A stretch of DNA of 64,000 nt from assembly GCF_000344685.1 (NCBI RefSeq), contig NW_006920430.1:34869-98868 (forward strand), written 5' to 3'. Numbering within the stretch: the stretch's first letter is position 1; each line of letters begins with the position of its first letter. Shown here piece after piece: positions 16,975 to 56,829 of the stretch. Source of the DNA: Gloeophyllum trabeum ATCC 11539 (Eukaryota; Basidiomycota; Agaricomycetes; Gloeophyllales; Gloeophyllaceae). A model generated the notes under the pieces. The model had not been told where the DNA came from. It saw only the letters and a list, made by a program, of their open reading frames with translations, and searched no databases. Both the position numbers and the translations under genes were made by a program.

Positions 16975-17089
16975 TGCATAAGTTGAGCTTGAGTACTATT
17001 CCATACCCATTATTGTATCATATGGTGCGGGACACCTGGTCACCGCCACTTGTGAACAACATTTATGGCACCCCTAGATTTCGACCTTG

Positions 17090-18203
17090 CCCCTCCTTTG
17101 GGAGGGGTTCTGGCACCCTTGAATTGCGTCACACTTTTCGTCGCACCGGCAAACTCCGGCGTGCTATGTTTGGCTCTAGTGGCGCCCTTACTGAACATGG
17201 ACTTAGCCATGGTTGGGCATGCATCTCAATGTTCACACTCAAGTCCCTCTCAACTATGTAATTAGTGTTGGTTTGTGGATGCCACAAGGTACAGGTGGAG
17301 GCCTATTATGAGGTAAAACTTAGAGAGCATAGTATTAAACATAGATCCTTGTACCTCAAAATTTTTGAGTGTTGGCTTGAGAAGGATTTGAGTGTATGTG
17401 CACTCCATCTAACATGTGTATTCAATCATTCCAGTTTTCTGTGCCATACATAAGTCTGTGATGGACAATTCACAAATTAGTAGAATCAAGAAATTCCATG
17501 TTATTCCATGGCTTATGATCATGAGGCCCAACATACTGTAAGATAAAACTATGATGTGAGATGGATGTCAGATGTCCAGGCAAGAGAGACACACCATTAG
17601 GCATTCTTGGTGAGGGGATAAGTATCTCTTAGACTACGACAGCACGGGACATTCTACCGGGCCCTAGATGGAGCTTGACTGAAAGAGAACCGGGTCCCCT
17701 ATATATATTACTAACAATATCCCTTGCATTATCTTACATGGTAGAAATACTGTCCTTATGATGATTTGCCAACCTTGTGTAGCAGCCACAACATCTTGAA
17801 CTTAGTGCACACTGCGGGCAAGCACTGATGTCCCGCCTCCTGACATTGGTCTTTCATGGGATGGGTGGGAGAACACCTTCCTTGGATGTTTCTCAGCGGA
17901 ACATGAGACAGGACATAAAGAATGACAAGACAATGCTAATTGAATGTCCTGTATATTTTAGTGACCATAGTAAATGTACTGCAGAACTTCTTTTGTTCCT
18001 TCAAAGGACATTCTGCATGTCCGGGCTATGGTCCAGCAAGGACCATTCGAGGAAGATGTTCTCCCACCCCGGAGGTGCCTTTTACATGTCCACCGGCAGA
18101 ACATCAGCCTTTGCCCTCAGTGGCAAGTTCTCAAGGTCAATTTCTTGAACAAAGGAGCGGTAAGTTGCTGGCGCCAGACAGCGCTTCACAAGTTTCCTTA
18201 GCC
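17090..18203 (+). mobile_element. Copy A of the CCCCTCCTTTG transposon family
   Basis: It starts with CCCCTCCTTTGGGAGGGG (17090-17107) and TTCTGGCACC. The right end near 18150-18203 has CAAAGGAGCGG then TAAGTTGCTGGCGCCAGA. Positions 17090-17815 are closely matched, in reverse complement, by copy B at 22400-23147, including a 62-codon frame (17265-17453) that recurs at 22784-22972. Copy A has about 310 extra nt (17820-18130) absent from copy B. No intact transposase was found, so it looks non-autonomous or decayed. Confidence 0.7.
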
Positions 18204-22344: not shown

Positions 22345-23147
22345 TAAGTAACTCATGAAGTGCCGTCTGGCGCCGGCAACTAACCCCTCCTTTGTTTAAG
22401 AAATTGACCTTGAGAACTTGCACTAAGTTCAAGATGTTGTGGCTGCTACACGAGGTTGACAAATTCATAAGGACAGTATTTCTACCATGTAAGATAATGC
22501 TAGGGATATTGTTAGTGATATATATAGGGGACCCAAGTTTTCCCCAGTTCTCTTTCAGTTCAGCTCCATCTAGGGCCAAGTAGGATGTCCTGTGCTATTG
22601 TAGTCTAAGAGATACTTATCCCCTCTCCAAAAATGTCTAATGGTGTGTATCTGACGCCTGGACATCTGGCATCCATCTCACATCATAGTTTTATCTTACA
22701 GTCTGTTGGGCCTCATGATCATAAGCCATGGAATAACATGGAATTTCTTGATTCTACTAATTTGTGAATTGTCCATCACAGACTTATGTATGGCACAGAA
22801 AACTGGAATGATTGAATACACATGTTAGATGGAGTGCACATACACTCAAATCCTTCTCAAGCCAAAACTCGAAAATTTTGAGGTACAAGGATCTATGTTT
22901 AATACTATGCTCTCTAAGTTTTACCTCATAATAGGCCTCCACCTGTACCTTGTGGCATCCACAAACCAACACTAATTACATAGTTGAGAGGGACTTGAGT
23001 GTGAACATTGAGATGCATGCCCAACCATGGCTAAGTCCATGTTCAGTAAGGGCGCCACTAGAGCCAAACATAGCACGCCGGAGTTTGCCGGTGCGACGAA
23101 AAGTGCGACGCAATTCAAGGGTGCCAGAACCCCTCCCAAAGGAGGGG
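22345..23147 (-). mobile_element. Copy B of the CCCCTCCTTTG transposon family, inverted relative to copy A
   Basis: The outer end hairpin CCCCTCCCAAAGGAGGGG is at 23130-23147. The other end near 22350-22392 carries the GGCGCCGGCAACTAACCCC junction and CCTCCTTTG. The body matches copy A in reverse complement almost throughout. Together A and B form a long inverted repeat that encloses MYND copy 1 and copy C. Confidence 0.7.
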
Positions 23148-23818
23148 CACGAGGCACGTATCACGTGAACGTGACTCGCGGGTTCATGATTCGGAATCAT
23201 TGAATTCCATTGAATGATTCATTGCCGCTCACTCATCCGCACCCAACGCTTGGTAGGATGTCTGACGCGGATCCCCGCCGGTTTGTGTATTCTGTGTACG
23301 TGTCTGAAACCAGTGCAAAGTAATTAACGAAGGTAACTCTGCCACAGTATTAGGAAATAGACCAGACCCAGCGTCTCATGGGCCGCTTGGCTGAGATTGC
23401 CTAGCTGGCTGGGTCTCAAAACATACCAGCTCCTGGAACGTTATAGTGGTCGCAACGGTCTCATATCTGAATTGGAATGGTATCCCTTAGACCTATTGAG
23501 TCGAACCCGTGTCCCTTCTTCGCATGTATATTTATAACCGGTGCATCGATGTCTGATTCTTACCTCCTTCAGCAGTCGGAACTAGGTCCTCCAGGGTCCG
23601 GAACGTCTTCATCAAGTGCATCACCACGCCATTCATTCCAAACGCGTGAATTCGGTGAGTAGCGCAGATGCTCAATGAACCTCCCACCATACTAACCCTG
23701 CTCTTGATCTACGATTCCGCCACAAAATCGCTCAGTCCTCCGGACGCACTAGAGTTTGACAGTAGATGCTTCTTGGGACGAGGACAGCATCTGCTTCAAC
23801 TAGCTCTTCGCCACATTT

Positions 23819-28919: not shown

Positions 28920-30679
28920 ATGTCGCTCTCGTCGCTCGCTGATGCGTTCGCCCCGTTCGTTAGGGAGATCCAGTCGACCCGGTACGCGGAACGTAAGTCA
29001 TAATATATGTCAAAATACTCGCTAGCATCCCGCTCACGTCACCCCAGTCGCGTCAAGTACTATCGTAATATACGACCATTGTGAGTGAGACTATCCCTTA
29101 CGCAGAACGCGACTCGGACTCAAGTATGTCCCCGCAGTGATCACATTGGACCAGGAGGTGAGCTACATCTAGCTTGTCTCTCGGCGAGACTGACGGTGCA
29201 TCTCAGATAGACCTAATATGGGTGCGCTCGCCTTGCGTACCATCCACTCTCACAAGCTGAACTCCATTTCCCCGTCTTCAGAAGGCTTCATGGACACCCG
29301 GAAAAGTATTGTTCTTAACGGTACGCATACACACTGTTATCCCCTTGTCGCAAGGCGTACCCAACGCCCGCGCGTGCAGAACCGCTATTACGTTCTTGCA
29401 AGTGTAATGTGAGTGCTGCATCTATTCACTCGCCAGGCCCGGTTCCTGACGCGTGCGGGTCCATGATGCAGATTCAACAACTACGGTATGCGTCGTCCCT
29501 GACTTGGACCGAAGGTTCCGCTGATATGCGGCTCCGGAACAGTTCTTTTCACCACACATCTCTCCGACTCGGTATGACATCATTCAATCTCGTGTCAAGC
29601 GTGTTCTAATCCGTGATATGCAGTTGTACGTGCCTTCGTATCAAAGATGTTTCTCAGGTTCATTCTCACACCTTTCGCCCTTCCCTCGCCGCAAATAGCT
29701 GTATGTATTCGCTCTCTTGCTGTAGACGCGCGTCTAACGTGGTGTGCAGGTGTTAAATGGTTTCGATGGCAAGGGACGACGGGCTTGCTAGTGTCCATGA
29801 TCGCCGAAAGTACGCTTCTGGCCTCCCTCGCATACCCCCCCTAACTTCTCCCGCGCCAGTCATCCTCCAACTGCGATTATACGCGCTGTACCACCTCAAC
29901 CGACGCGTGCTCGTGCTCATGTGCGGGGCGTTCCTGGTCTCAGCAGGCACAGCGGCCGTGATCATGGGCATGGTGCTCGCGCGCATATCAGGTGCGTCTC
30001 CTCCGCGCGTCCTCTCTGCGCCCTTCCAACGCCGGCCCAGCGCACTCGGGCCTGATCCCGGGCCTGCCGTTCTGCATCCCGGTGAACGTGCCCTCGTGGT
30101 TCTACACGTTCTGGATCCCGACGCTCGGCTTCGAGAGCCTGCTCTGCGCGCTCGCGTTGTTCCGCGCGTTCAGGGACTTTCGCAGCCGCACGAGCCTCTT
30201 CCAGAGCGGGCGGCACATCGTGAAGATATTGATCCGGGACTCGGTGATTTATTACCTCATGTGCGCGCGTTCTCTTCTGCTCGGACTCGGGCCTGACGGT
30301 GTTTAGTATGTTCGCGACGTACTTTACCAACCTCGTCATATTCCTCACTGGCAACGTGCGTCCCGCCTTCCGCCCTTCTCTGCTCACCACTAACACCCCC
30401 CAGGTCGGCGTGCTCGAGTCCGGGATCGGGTTCGCGGTGACGATGTCGTGCGTGATGGGCAGCCGGCTGTGCCTGAACATCCGCGACGTGCACCACGAGC
30501 TGGAGGCGTCGACCGCGTCGCAGCAGCAGCACCTCACGCAGCCGTCGTTCGTGTCCGGCGGGCGGAGTGCGTACGGGACGGCGAGCCGCGGGACGAATAT
30601 CGTGGTTTCGAGCACGTATGCGCTGACGGAGTTTGAGCTCGTGGAGTTGCGGAATTTGCGGGCGCAGGGGAAGGTGTAG
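28920..30679 (+). CDS. DUF6533 seven-helix-type membrane protein, unit I copy
   Basis: Fifteen exons: 28920-28992, 29048-29080, 29138-29157, 29207-29221, 29282-29320, 29380-29408, 29472-29485, 29543-29571, 29624-29625, 29699-29700, 29750-29809, 29860-29991, 30041-30260, 30307-30355, 30404-30679; 330 residues, every junction GT-AG and in frame. Exons 2-7 assemble the DUF6533 domain: IVIYDHLITLDQEIDLIW, KASWTPGKVLFLTNRYYVLA, VIFNNYVLF (about residues 25-78). Exons 8-11 give THLSDSFCVKWFRWQG. Helices follow: TGLLVSMIAEIILQLRLYAL, VLVLMCGAFLVSAGTAAVI, SWFYTFWIPTLGFESLLCAL, IMFATYFTNLVIFLTGN and GFAVTMSCVMGSRL, then a cytoplasmic tail with three Gln and a Ser/Thr-rich end. DUF6533 proteins are predicted membrane proteins, highly expanded in Agaricomycetes, function unknown. 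All introns are short (46-73 nt). Confidence 0.85.
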
Positions 30680-34626: not shown

Positions 34627-35389
34627 CTTCGGTACATGAAGACTTGGAAGTGTACACTCTGAAACACACTCTCAGATTAATATGGAAATTGACTTACCAG
34701 GAACTATCTGGCATGCTATGGAAGCGGCCACTTCGAACGCATACCACACAGTTCCCTGGAAAGCTGATGGCTACGGAACGGACTCAGGGGCAGTGAGACC
34801 TTGTTCAAGCTCGCGCAGGGTACGTAGCTGCTGTACAGCTCCGGTCATCAGGAACACAATGAGTCAATTGAACAGTCGCAATGAGATTGTTGATCGCGAA
34901 CTCTGCCGACGCTGCCCCTTCGGACTATTCTCGGGACTGTAGTGAACTTGAATACTGCATTGTGACGCAAACTGGACCAACAGGATGCCACAATGGACTG
35001 GCGACGGTCTATTATTCAAATGTGGTGAGCTCGCGGTTGGACAACAAGTGCTAGGACCGGACCCGTGCAAGTGATACCTTCCCAGTGAAGTTAAACCACG
35101 GTGGGTTGAGCACCCTTCAGCACGATTGTCCGGGACAGTGCCAGACAGCTAGCTTACCGTCTTGACCGCTCGGAGCTCCGATCCCGGTGCTGGAACTTGC
35201 ACCGAGATGATGGAGGTGCATACTTGCGGTTGTCGAGATCTGGTAGGATCCATTGATCACACACGTTCAGTGCCGTTACTACCGAGCCATAGCGTGCGTG
35301 CAGTCAGCCCTAGAATCGACAGTCGTTGCTATGCCAGTGGTCAATCATTGAGACTTACCGCGTCGTCTGCATGTCAACAAAGACAAGTC

Positions 35390-36048: not shown

Positions 36049-36849
36049 GATCGCGAACTCTGCCGACGCTGCCCCTTCGGACTATTCTCGGGACTGTAGT
36101 GAACTTGAATACTGCATTGTGACGCAAACTGGACCAACAGGATGCCACAATGGACTGGCGACGGTCTATTATTCAAATGTGGTGAGCTCGCGGTTGGACA
36201 ACAAGTGCTAGGACCGGACCCGTGCAAGTGATACCTTCCCAGTGAAGTTAAACCACGGTGGGTTGAGCACCCTTCAGCACGATTGTCCGGGACAGTGCCA
36301 GACAGCTAGCTTACCGTCTTGACCGCTCGGAGCTCCGATCCCGGTGCTGGAACTTGCACCGAGATGATGGAGGTGCATACTTGCGGTTGTCGAGATCTGG
36401 TAGGATCCATTGATCACACACGTTCAGTGCCGTTACTACCGAGCCATAGCGTGCGTGCAGTCAGCCCTAGAATCGACAAGTCGTTGCTATGCCAGTGGTC
36501 AATCATTGAGACTTACCGCGTCGTCTGCATGTCAACAAAGACAAGTCATCGATGAGCTCGCGCTGCAGCTCTATGGCTTGCAGGTGACGTACCTCGACCT
36601 ATCTCTAGTCGCATGACTGTTCGACATTGAGACGCGAGGAGCAACACAGTGTCATTGGCCATATGTGTGAGTGCTACATGTTTTCAGGCTTGGGCATGGC
36701 CGTAGAACTGATCTACAGCGCAATCTTATTACATTTCAGTCAGTATCTCGCTCACAATGGCCTGACGGCATGCGTTCGAGCAATACTTATGAGGACTTGC
36801 ACCAACGGCAATACAACATACCGTATACCACCAGACATAGAGTAAATAG

Positions 36850-41550: not shown

Positions 41551-42079
41551 TTCACCGTCCCAGGCCCCTGCCGCTGAGGCTTCCTTCGATCCCCACAACT
41601 CGTTTAAATCCAGACCCTCGTCCGAGAATGAAAAGAAGTTTGCGCGGTTCTGTATGCGCGTTCTGACCACCGATCGTCGTTCTCCGAGCTTGTTTCCCTC
41701 TCCCCGGCTCGCATCGTCCCCCACTCGTTCTTTCCCCCTACGCGCCATGTCGCTCTCGTCGCTCGCTGATTCATAACATATCTCAGTACAATCGATTGTT
41801 CACGTCACCCTAGTCGCGTCAAGCACTATCGTAATCTACGACCATTGTGAGTGACGCTATCCCTTTCGCAGAACGCGACTGCAGCATGTCCCCGCAGTGA
41901 TCACATTGGACCAGGAGGTGAGCTACCCCTAGCTTGCCTCTCCGCGAGACTGACGGTGCATCTCAGATAGACCTAATATGGGTGCGCTCGCCTGCGTACC
42001 ATCCACTCTCACCATCTGAACTCCATTTCCCCGTCTTCAGAAGGCTTCATGGACACCCGGAAAAGTATTGTTCTTAACG

Positions 42080-42788: not shown

Positions 42789-44167
42789 AACCGCTATTAC
42801 GTTCTTGCAAGTGTAACGTGAGTGCCGCATCCACTCCCTTGCCAAGCACAGTTCCTGACACGTGCGGGTCCGTGTCGCAGATTCAACAACTACGGTACGC
42901 ATCTTCCCTGACTTGGACCAAAGGTTCCGCTGATATGCGGCTCCGGACCAGTTCTTTTCACCACACATCTCTCCGACTCGGTATGACATCATTCAATCTC
43001 ATGTCAGAAGTGTTCTAATCCGTGATATGCAGTTGTACGTGCCCTAGTGTCAAAGAAATTTTGCAGAATCAATCTCACATTGCTCGCTGTCTTTTCCGCG
43101 GGATTAGCTGTATGTCTCCGCACTGCTAGCATGCACGTACGTCTAACCCACCGTGCAGGCATTAAATGGTTTCGATGGCAAGGCACGACGGGCTTGCTAG
43201 TGTCCATGATAGCCGAAAGTAAGTCTATCTCTCTCTTGTCCCTCTCAGGGCCCGTGACACTGCGCAGACGGCTTTGAATTCCATGTGTGCTGTGCTCAGT
43301 GCCGTGTTTTCAAAGCTGTCGGCGCGTCTAGCCTCCATCGAGCCACTCGAAAAGCAAGGGGGGGTCTCTGTAGGATAGATGTCCCACGGAAGTCCTGTCA
43401 GACGGTCACAAAGAACGGGCTTCTATGTCATACCCAAACTGCCCATCTCTCCCTCGCTCCGTCGTATACACTCATCTTACACGCACTCTCCGATAGTCAT
43501 CCTCCAACTGCGCCTCTACGCGCTGTACCACCTCAACCGACGCGTGCTCGTGCTCATGTGCGGGGCGTTCCTGGTTTCAGCGGGCACAGCGGCCGTGATC
43601 ATGGGCATGGTGCTCGCGCGTATATCAGGTGCGTCTCCTCCGCGCGTCCTCTCAGCGCCCCGTCCAACGCCGGCCAGCGCACTCGGGCCTGATCCCGGGC
43701 CTGCCGTTCTGCATCCCGGTGAACGTGCCCTCGTGGTTCTACACGTTCTGGATCCCGACGCTCGGCTTCGAGAGCCTGCTCTGCGCGCTCGCGTTGTTCC
43801 GCGCGTTCAAGGACTTTCGCAGCCGCACGAGCCTCTTCCAGAGCGGGCGGCACATCGTGAAGATATTGATCCGGGACTCGGTGATTTATTACCTCATGTG
43901 CGTGTGTTCTCTCCTGCTCGGAATCTGGCCTGACGGTGCTTAGTATGTTCGCGACGTACTTTACCAACCTCATCATATTCCTTACTGGCAACGTGCGTCC
44001 CGTTCCCGTTCCGCCTTCCGCCCTTCTTTGCTCACCACTAACACCCCCCAGGTCGGCGTGCTCGAGTCCGGGATCGGGTTCGCGGTGACGATGTCATGCG
44101 TCATGGGCAGCCGGCTGTGCCTGAACATCCGCGACGTGCACCACGAGCTGGAGGTGTCGACCGCGTC

Positions 44168-54418: not shown

Positions 54419-56829
54419 ATGTCGCTCTCGTCGCTCGCTGATGTGTTCGCCCCGTTCGTTAGGGAGATCCAGTCGGCCCGGTACGCGGAACGTAAGTCAT
54501 AACATATCTCGACATAATCGCTAGCGTCCCGCTCACGTCACCCCAGTCGCGTCAAGCACTATCGTCATCTACGACCATTGTGAGTGACGCTATCCCTTTC
54601 GCAGAACGCGACTGCAGCATGTCCCCGCAGTGATCACATTGGACCAGGAGGTGAGCTACCCCTAGCTTGCCTCTCCGCGAGACTGACGGTGCATCTCAGA
54701 TAGACCTAATATGGGTGCGCTCGCCTGCGTACCATCCACTCCCACGAGCTGAACTCCATCTCCCCGTCTTCAGAAGGCTTCATGGACACCCGGAAAAGTA
54801 TTGTTCTTAACGGTGAGTATATGCGCTGTTGTCTCTTATTACTTCGGACCCTCCCAGAGGCCCTACGAGGATGCTCGGTACATATCTCGCCCGTGTCTCA
54901 TTCCTTTCTGCTCAGCATGGGCTGCAGTCTCTAATTTCCCTGCCTCGACGACTAATTTCCTCGTGCCCGCTCGCTGCATCCTCCGTACCTTTCTCGAGCT
55001 GGGTAGTGCTTCGGTATTGGTTGCGTCTCAAGAGCACCTGTTTCCGTGGCTTCGTCATCGCGCTGTACGCCATACGTGCGGCTCACTGACGTCCCTCCCT
55101 CTGCTGGCCCGAGGTACGAATTGAAGAGGACATTGTTGCTTCTTCGGTTTCCCGCCCACGCACGGTGCTCGTATTTACCATCGCGCTCCGTCCCAGTACT
55201 GGACATCTCATTACTCCCCATAATTTCTCACTTGCTGTGGCTGACACTATTGCATGATAGAACCGCTATTACGTTCTTGCAAGTGTAATGTGAGTGCCGC
55301 ATCCACTCCCTTGCCAAGCACAGTTCCTGACACGTGCGGGTCCGTGTCGCAGATTCAACAACTACGGTACGCATCTTCCCTGACTTGGACCAAAGGTTCC
55401 GCTGATATGCGGCTCCGGAACAGTTCTCTTCACCACACATCTCTCCGACTCGGTATGACATCATTCAATCTCGCGTCAAGCGTGTTCTAATCCGTGATAT
55501 GCAGTTGTACGTGCCTGAGTATCCAGGATTTCTCGTTCAATCGTTCTCACATGCATTCACTGTCTCTGCACGGAAATAGCTGTATGTATTCGCACTCTTG
55601 GCGTAGACGCGCGTCTAACGTGGTGTGCAGGCGTTAAATGGTTTCGATGGCAAGGGACAACGGGCTTACTGGTGTCCATGATAGCCGAAAGTAAGTCTAT
55701 TGCTATCTTGTCTCTCTCAAGTGACTGCGACGGGGCCTCTTTTGCCGTAAACCCGTGGGCACATATACCGCACAGGCGGTCTTGGAGTCCCACGGGCGCT
55801 CTACCAAGTGTTCTGGATCCAAGGATATTGGCACGTCTACTCTCCATAGAGCCACCCGAATCCAAAGGAGGATCTCCATAGGATAGATGCGCCCTGGAAG
55901 TCCTGTTAGACTGGTCAACAAAGACCGAGTTTCTGTGTTATACCGTTTATCCCTCTCTCGGTTGTATGCACTCGACTCACCCTCACCCCCCGACAGTCAT
56001 CCTCCAACTGCGACTCTACGCGCTGTACCACCTCAACCGACGCGTGCTGGTGCTCATGTGCGGGGCGTTCTTGGTTTCAGCGGGCACAGCGGCCGTGATC
56101 ATGGGCACGGTGCTCGCGCGTATATCAGGTGCGTCTCCTCCGCGCGTCCTCTCTGCGCCCCGTCCAACGCCGGCCCAGCGCACTCGGGCCTGATCCCGGG
56201 CCTGCCGTTCTGCATCCCCGTGAACGTGCCCTCGTGGTTCTACACGTTCTGGATCCCGACGCTGGGCTTCGAGAGCCTGCTCTGCGCGCTCGCGTTGTTC
56301 CGTGCGTTCAAGGACTTTCGCAGCCGCACGAGCCTCTTCCAGAGCGGGCGGCACATCGTGAAGATATTGATCCGGGACTCGGTGATTTATTACCTCATGT
56401 GCGCGCGTTCTCTTCTGCTCGGACTCGGGCCTGACGGTGTTTAGTATGTTTGCGACGTACTTTACCAACCTCATCATATTCCTCACTGGCAACGTGCGTC
56501 CCGCCTTCCGCCCTTCTCTGCTCACCACTAACACCCCCCAGGTCGGCGTGCTCGAGTCCGGGATCGGGTTTGCGGTGACGATGTCGTGCGTGATGGGCAG
56601 CCGGCTGTGCCTGAACATCCGCGACGTGCACCACGAGCTGGAGGTGTCGACCGCGTCGCAGCAGCAGCAGCAGCAGCAGCACCTCACGCAGCCGTCGTTC
56701 GTGTCCGGCGGGCGGAGTGCGTACGGGACGGCGAGCCGCGGGACGAATATCGTGGTTTCGAGCACGTATGCGCTGACGGAGTTTGAGCTCGTCGAGTTGC
56801 GGAATTTGCGGGCGCAGGGGAAGGTGTAG
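54419..56829 (+). CDS. DUF6533 seven-helix-type membrane protein, unit III copy
   Basis: Fifteen exons: 54419-54491, 54547-54579, 54631-54650, 54700-54714, 54774-54812, 55261-55289, 55353-55366, 55424-55452, 55505-55506, 55580-55581, 55631-55690, 55997-56128, 56179-56398, 56445-56493, 56542-56829; they sum to 1005 nt, or 334 residues, with consistent phases. The domain order is as in the unit I copy, and the tail has seven Gln. The Cys codon across the second micro-exon is TGC here and TGT in unit I, a silent change that supports the junction. Introns 54813-55260 (448 nt) and 55691-55996 (306 nt) are long. No defect is visible, so this and the unit I copy are the probable working genes. Confidence 0.85.

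Follow-up and report, generated by a model that had tools for sequence, protein, structure and literature searches.

The exons that come closest to those described here are single exons of 1 nt. In the passages cited, a single-nucleotide exon is described for the APC11 gene of Arabidopsis (PMC4674806; PMC8831610), and VPS55 is given as a further gene with a single 1-nt exon (PMC8831610). An exon of 1 nt, covered by RNA reads, is also reported for the CYP621A P450 genes of Fusarium, and its authors count it as the second such case and as the first from a fungal gene (PMC12940212). Adjacent microexons of 5 and 12 nt occur in a rice gene (PMC8831610), and the P450 genes of Phanerochaete chrysosporium contain microexons of which the shortest is 6 bp (PMC1184071). 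Work on fungal microexons has been called limited (PMC11121469). The DUF6533 family, to which the genes discussed here belong, is described as basidiomycete-specific, and one of its members is SNB1 of Coprinopsis, a protein with seven predicted membrane helices (PMC10949477).

The stretch of DNA analysed here (the window) comprises 64,000 nt and is part of contig C21 of a genome of 35.5 Mb in 34 contigs, most likely a basidiomycete one in view of its DUF6533 genes. Three DUF6533 gene copies (units I, II and III) lie within the window, and a further one (unit IV) is located elsewhere on contig C21. The Pfam profile PF20151 gave 58 matches in the genome, from which 54 loci were collected, namely the four copies and 50 others, all from this one genome. 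In the first-pass annotation, unit I had been read as containing two consecutive 2-nt micro-exons, separated and flanked by three introns (29572-29749), and on recheck these intron and micro-exon coordinates proved to be exact. The layout of the gene is as follows, with L047/L068 denoting a distant paralog that is described below.

28920..30679, plus strand: unit I DUF6533 gene, 15 exons and 14 introns, 330 codons when spliced
28920-28992, 29048-29080, 29138-29157, 29207-29221, 29282-29320, plus strand: exons 1-5
29380-29408, 29472-29485, 29543-29571, 29624-29625, 29699-29700, plus strand: exons 6-10
29750-29809, 29860-29991, 30041-30260, 30307-30355, 30404-30679, plus strand: exons 11-15
29543..29571, plus strand: exon 8, 29 nt, ending ..CTC TCC GAC TCG in phase 0; a 29-nt exon is also present in L047/L068
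29572..29623, plus strand: intron A, 52 nt, GTATGA..CTAAT..GCAG; position common to 30 of 54 loci
29624..29625, plus strand: micro-exon 9, TT, bases 1-2 of the Phe codon TTC; 2-nt exon here in 22 of 54 loci
29626..29698, plus strand: intron B, 73 nt, GTACGT..CTCAC..ATAG; position common to 29 of 54 loci
29699..29700, plus strand: micro-exon 10, CT, base 3 of the Phe codon and base 1 of the Cys codon; 2-nt exon here in 5 of 54 loci
29701..29749, plus strand: intron C, 49 nt, GTATGT..CTAAC..GCAG; amongst the 54 loci only in units I-IV and L068
29750..29809, plus strand: exon 11, 60 nt, opening with the final two bases of the Cys codon

The gap occupied by TT and CT sits between THLSDS and KWFRWQG. 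Joining TT, CT and GT restores the frame, as had been claimed, and the unit I model is then open over all 330 codons, with a predicted spliced junction of GACTCG-TTCT-GTGTTAAATGG. With 64.6 bits, the spliced protein clears the PF20151 cut-off of 24.1. We regard the two consecutive 2-nt exons as confirmed as a feature of the sequence and as very likely real in the mRNA, with a probability of about 0.92. This reading is supported by the four near-identical copies, by the distant paralog, by paralogs that have either intron A or intron B alone, and by paralogs in which the Phe and Cys codons are unbroken.

The corresponding features of the other two copies in the window are:

54419..56829, plus strand: unit III DUF6533 gene, 15 exons, open when spliced
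55505..55506, plus strand: unit III micro-exon TT
55580..55581, plus strand: unit III micro-exon CT
43033..43034, plus strand: unit II micro-exon TT
43108..43109, plus strand: unit II micro-exon CT

The exons of the four copies are 97.2-97.9% identical in pairwise comparison. Intron lengths (52, 73 and 49 nt) and the micro-exons TT and CT are constant in all four, as are the splice signals, which are GTATGA/GCAG for intron A, GTACGT with either ATAG or TTAG for intron B, and GTATGT/GCAG for intron C. Within intron B, 43-51 of the 73 bases are conserved in five of the six copy pairs, and 70 of 73 between units II and IV. The earlier statement that splice signals, TT and CT are kept while the intron bodies differ therefore holds for the three copies in the window and for unit IV as well. 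The same is true of the silent change in the Cys codon, which is TGT in unit I and TGC in units II and III, and is also TGC in unit IV. The predicted spliced junction of unit III is GACTCG-TTCT-GCGTTAAATGG.

It could be argued that these are decayed gene copies, no longer properly spliced, in which the micro-exons are accidental. Unit II, in which the end of exon 1 is missing together with its donor, would suit such an explanation. However, three of the four copies (units I, III and IV) have an uninterrupted reading frame from start to stop codon and all splice sites intact, codon differences per copy pair (214 codons) comprise 11-19 silent changes versus only 3-5 that replace an amino acid, and the distant paralog retains the same pattern; decay is thus a most improbable account of the micro-exons. 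In unit II the damage lies at 41747-41846, and the ATG meets a stop after nine codons. This copy carries the three introns and the micro-exons like the others despite its damaged exon 1, and it may be a pseudogene or may use another start.

Units I-III form a tandem array (28738-63999) with gene starts approximately 12.7-12.8 kb apart. The repeats of the array are piecewise ~78-98% identical, and one intron measures 59, 709 and 448 nt in units I, II and III, respectively. Intron B (29626-29698, 43035-43107 and 55507-55579) is strongly divergent among unit I, unit III and the II/IV pair, with exons ~97.5% identical. Introns A-C of units II and IV are near identical (52/52, 70/73 and 48/49 bases), and this sharing suggests gene conversion or copies of mosaic origin. 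Unit I also contains a direct duplication of 499 bp (34892-35389 and 36049-36547; 99.8% identity), apparently a recent one, and elsewhere in the window there is an inverted repeat pair of ~730 bp with 95% identity (17088-17809 and 22419-23149). Genome and viral contigs scanned with exon 13 as the query yielded no relative. GH7 was found neither in this genome nor in any of the control genomes, and its absence therefore carries no weight.

Parses of the gap were enumerated from the codons before TCG to the codons for KWFRWQG, using strict splice sites (donor GT[AGC]NG, acceptor [CT]AG, introns of at least 35 nt). With these sites, a single-intron in-frame parse is absent from all four copies, and to that extent the claim that no direct junction of exon 8 to exon 11 keeps the frame is upheld; when any GT..AG is permitted, one single-intron parse appears in each of units I, II and IV, and none in unit III. 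The sole strict three-intron parse in each of the four copies is 52/73/49 with TT and CT. Strict two-intron parses leave a 43-nt exon (units I, II and IV), a 55-nt exon (unit III) or TT alone (units II and IV), and the four copies have no two-intron parse in common.

These two-intron parses would allow the gap to hold a longer exon, of 43 nt in units I, II and IV and 55 nt in unit III, ending in CT, with intron A running to a later acceptor. Although a strict in-frame parse of this type exists in each copy, we consider such an exon very unlikely. Its length and acceptor vary between copies, its sequence changes in an intron-like manner, and the peptides it would encode are unrelated (VHSHTFRPSLAANSC in unit I, NQSHIARCLFRGISC in units II and IV, DFSFNRSHMHSLSLHGNSC in unit III), whereas the remaining protein is nearly identical. 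It would moreover disrupt the LS-x-x-x-C spacing that is kept by many paralogs, and in L068 there is no strict two-intron parse to the C-HNFFIFQ exon, loose ones being present.

The distant paralog was encountered when the genome was searched with the protein around the site, which gave a weak match on contig C5 (L047, L068) with 31% identity in the aligned portion. Under strict sites, L047/L068 has a single three-intron parse, which consists of GTCAGT..CTAG (53 nt), GTAAGC..CTAG (70 nt) and GTATGT..TCAG (50 nt) and leaves GG and AT as exons; the predicted spliced junction of L068 is GATGCA-GGAT-GTCATAAT. Its exons are 64, 33, 20, 15, 39, 29, 14, 29, 2, 2, 60 and 132 nt long, and the first 12 exons of unit I (73, 33, 20, 15, 39, 29, 14, 29, 2, 2, 60 and 132 nt) have the same lengths after exon 1. 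Between the two genes, LSDAGCHNFFIFQG can be aligned to LSDSFCVKWFRWQG with no gap, and the spliced L047 protein scores 63.6 bits against PF20151 (cut-off 24.1). Two strict single-intron parses are also present in L047/L068; they would add 16-17 residues and lose the Cys. The gene model of L047 was initially set by hand, and when the locus was aligned with the unit I protein alone, the micro-exons were not chosen by the aligner. They were found with a profile containing the hand-made L047 model, and also with a profile that contained no locus with both introns A and B (A+B locus).

All loci were aligned to a profile using a custom spliced alignment program, in which introns may lie in any phase and exons may be as short as 1 nt. 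As a control, both micro-exons of unit III were recovered from the unit I protein. Intron A precedes the codon before the conserved Cys, intron B lies inside that codon, and intron C lies inside the Cys codon. Intron A was found in 30 of the 54 loci, B in 29, A and B together in 22, and C in 5. The bases of the first micro-exon across the 22 A+B loci are TT, AA, AT, GG, AG, AC or GT. Internal exons of at most 5 nt number 29 across all parses: 22 are delimited by A and B, 5 are delimited by B and C, and the remaining two comprise a 5-nt exon ending at B (L013) and a 3-nt exon at another place in unit II. Where A and B are present and C is not, the following exon is 62 nt (2 + 60) in 14 of 17 loci, and insertion of intron C would split the second micro-exon off this 62-nt exon.

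Eight loci have A without B, and in these the exon after A opens with the whole codon and the Cys (e.g., ACATGC, ACGTGT). Two of these A-only paralogs contain TTCTGC (L079) and TTCTGT (L072) unbroken, and a third A-only locus (L051) has a GC donor. In the seven loci with B but no A, two bases of the codon stand before B and the third base follows it together with the Cys (e.g., TA then CTGC); the exon ahead of B is an ordinary one in six of them, and is 5 nt in L013. One locus (L059) has neither intron, and LSQHGC is encoded in one exon. Since A and B are each seen alone where there is no 2-nt exon, such an exon necessarily results when a gene carries both. In L013 and L015, which are sister paralogs on contig C10, a 5-nt exon (GCAAG) may lie directly before intron B; under a later profile, a 130-nt intron replaces it in L015.

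In recursive splicing, a donor GT follows directly on the acceptor AG and nothing is retained, whereas a stwintron is formed where the splice signal of one intron is split by a second intron, again with no coding bases left. Recursive splicing had been put forward in the first-pass annotation as an alternative to the micro-exons. It has no literal fit here, because 2 nt stay each time and the frame needs them. The three introns might represent steps in the removal of one long intron (or twin intron) with no bases kept, and the spacing of 2 nt between each acceptor and the next donor does suggest stepwise removal. Against this, removal of the whole 178 nt leads out of frame, and none of the four copies offers a strict single-intron parse. 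In the A-only and B-only paralogs, furthermore, the 2 nt in question form part of a codon, and the removal of one long intron is hardly credible as an explanation of the gap.

Besides the longer exon, three candidate structures for the gap were tried and rejected, recursive splicing and the twin intron in their literal sense. Zero-length recursive splicing fails as the sequences read AG-TT-GT and AG-CT-GT, with no AG placed directly on GT, and 4 nt are needed for the frame. A stwintron was discarded on the grounds that every one of the three introns has complete signals and that full removal destroys the frame. A single intron across the gap is out of frame with strict sites.

The 2-nt exons are not an artefact of alignment to profiles that already contain them. 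With a profile built from 23 loci without A+B and the default intron penalty, A and B were recovered in 20 of 22 loci and C in 5 of 5; L011 and L014 were missed. Recovery falls at higher penalties: at intron penalties of 9 and 11, A+B was kept in 17/22 and 11/22 loci and C in 4/5 and 2/5, respectively. When short cut-outs were used, 16 of the 22 real A+B loci kept the exon and 6 lost it, including L068. In dinucleotide-preserving shuffles of the gap, restricted to the 22 loci that had been selected as carriers of the exon, a single 2-nt exon arose in 44/1320 and 42/660 shuffles and a double one in 0/1320 and 0/660. The double 2-nt exon pattern exceeds chance.

A strict single-intron in-frame parse is absent in 16 of the 22 A+B loci (it is present in L017, L022, L050, L068, L073 and L074), and one can be found in 18 of 22 if any GT..AG is accepted. 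Amongst the 17 loci with a single micro-exon, the 2-nt parse uses strict sites in 8 and requires weaker sites in 9.

A tree was generated for 45 of the 54 loci, nine having been dropped for poor coverage, and trait columns were excluded. The five loci with intron C form one group on this tree (support 92/82). Introns A and B each require eight changes, which is a rough count, given that the tree leaves 16 of its 41 inner branches without resolution and that the bootstrap had yet to converge. Both introns look old, with repeated loss or gain. We suggest that A and B are old positions of the family, and that C joined once, in the lineage that comprises the unit I-type gene and L068. Beyond this genome, we lean towards the view that an ancient 2-nt exon is widespread in the DUF6533 genes of mushroom-forming fungi, occurring in dozens of genes in each genome and mostly overlooked by gene prediction, and that some lineages have gained an extra intron that creates two such exons in series with an obligatory order of removal.

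The unit I gene encodes a DUF6533 membrane protein, very probably from an mRNA with two constitutive 2-nt exons. The micro-exons arise from three spliceosomal introns that lie 2 nt apart: A before the codon that precedes the conserved Cys, B after its second base and C one base into the Cys codon. These introns with their splice signals, the frame and the shared intron positions in paralogs are evident from the sequence itself. In the mechanism we propose, introns of 49-73 nt would be recognised across themselves (intron definition), and the tiny exons would then need no recognition as exons. With an acceptor and the next donor only 2 nt apart, two spliceosomes could hardly occupy both sites together, so sequential removal of the introns is probable, with each splicing step attaching the 2 nt to an exon of normal size before the next takes place. 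Stepwise splicing of introns A-C, akin to recursive splicing, is therefore likely by virtue of this spacing. Skipping both micro-exons would remove 4 nt and shift the frame, and their inclusion is thus needed for the protein. The two exons are probably included constitutively, although a regulated switch is conceivable.

If the 2-nt exons are real, the content of an exon would contribute almost nothing to its recognition in DUF6533 genes, where such exons occur in series and with varied bases. The splicing machinery seems to handle coding pieces far under the usual size. Paralogs with A only, B only, A+B and A+B+C in one genome provide a natural series for studying whether closely spaced introns are removed in a fixed order. 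If the ancient, family-wide 2-nt exon is also true, DUF6533 would be the largest natural set bearing on the lower limit of exon size. Gene prediction programs that impose a lower limit on exon length would misread such genes, and database proteins of the DUF6533 family may consequently be wrong at the conserved Cys.

Among the matches listed from the open-licence literature, neither a pair of successive 2-nt exons nor a micro-exon in a DUF6533 gene was described. The one paper listed for 2-nt exons concerns HLA-F in primates. The micro-exons show the characteristics of an ultra-small constitutive exon of the APC11/CYP621A type, in that the frame needs them, canonical sites flank them on both sides, they are conserved in homologs within this one genome, and there is a relative in which the bases are part of a large exon. 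As far as the cited accounts describe it, the APC11 exon is likewise tiny, constitutive, required for the frame, flanked by splice sites and conserved, and some relatives hold its base in a large exon (PMC4674806; PMC8831610). APC11 differs in being a plant gene with one 1-nt exon and experimental proof, whereas the present case concerns a fungus and two 2-nt exons in series that are predicted from the sequence. The likeness to CYP621A extends to the host, a filamentous fungus, to the way the exon was revealed by a break in frame at a conserved motif, and to aligned splice sites and an intronless relative (PMC12940212). There, however, one 1-nt exon is found in a set of orthologs, and here two exons follow each other, the first of them in 22 of 54 paralogous loci and with varied bases.

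The rice microexons are also in series but larger, those of DUF6533 being 2 nt each (PMC8831610). The P450 genes of P. chrysosporium resemble the DUF6533 genes in their very small exons, in introns of 45-55 bp and in forming a large basidiomycete gene family (PMC1184071). SNB1 belongs to the same DUF6533 family as the unit I and L047 proteins, and the passages describing it make no mention of micro-exons (PMC10949477). Single 1-nt exons were thus known already; what is new is the occurrence of two 2-nt exons in series, the first of which recurs in 22 of the 54 loci.
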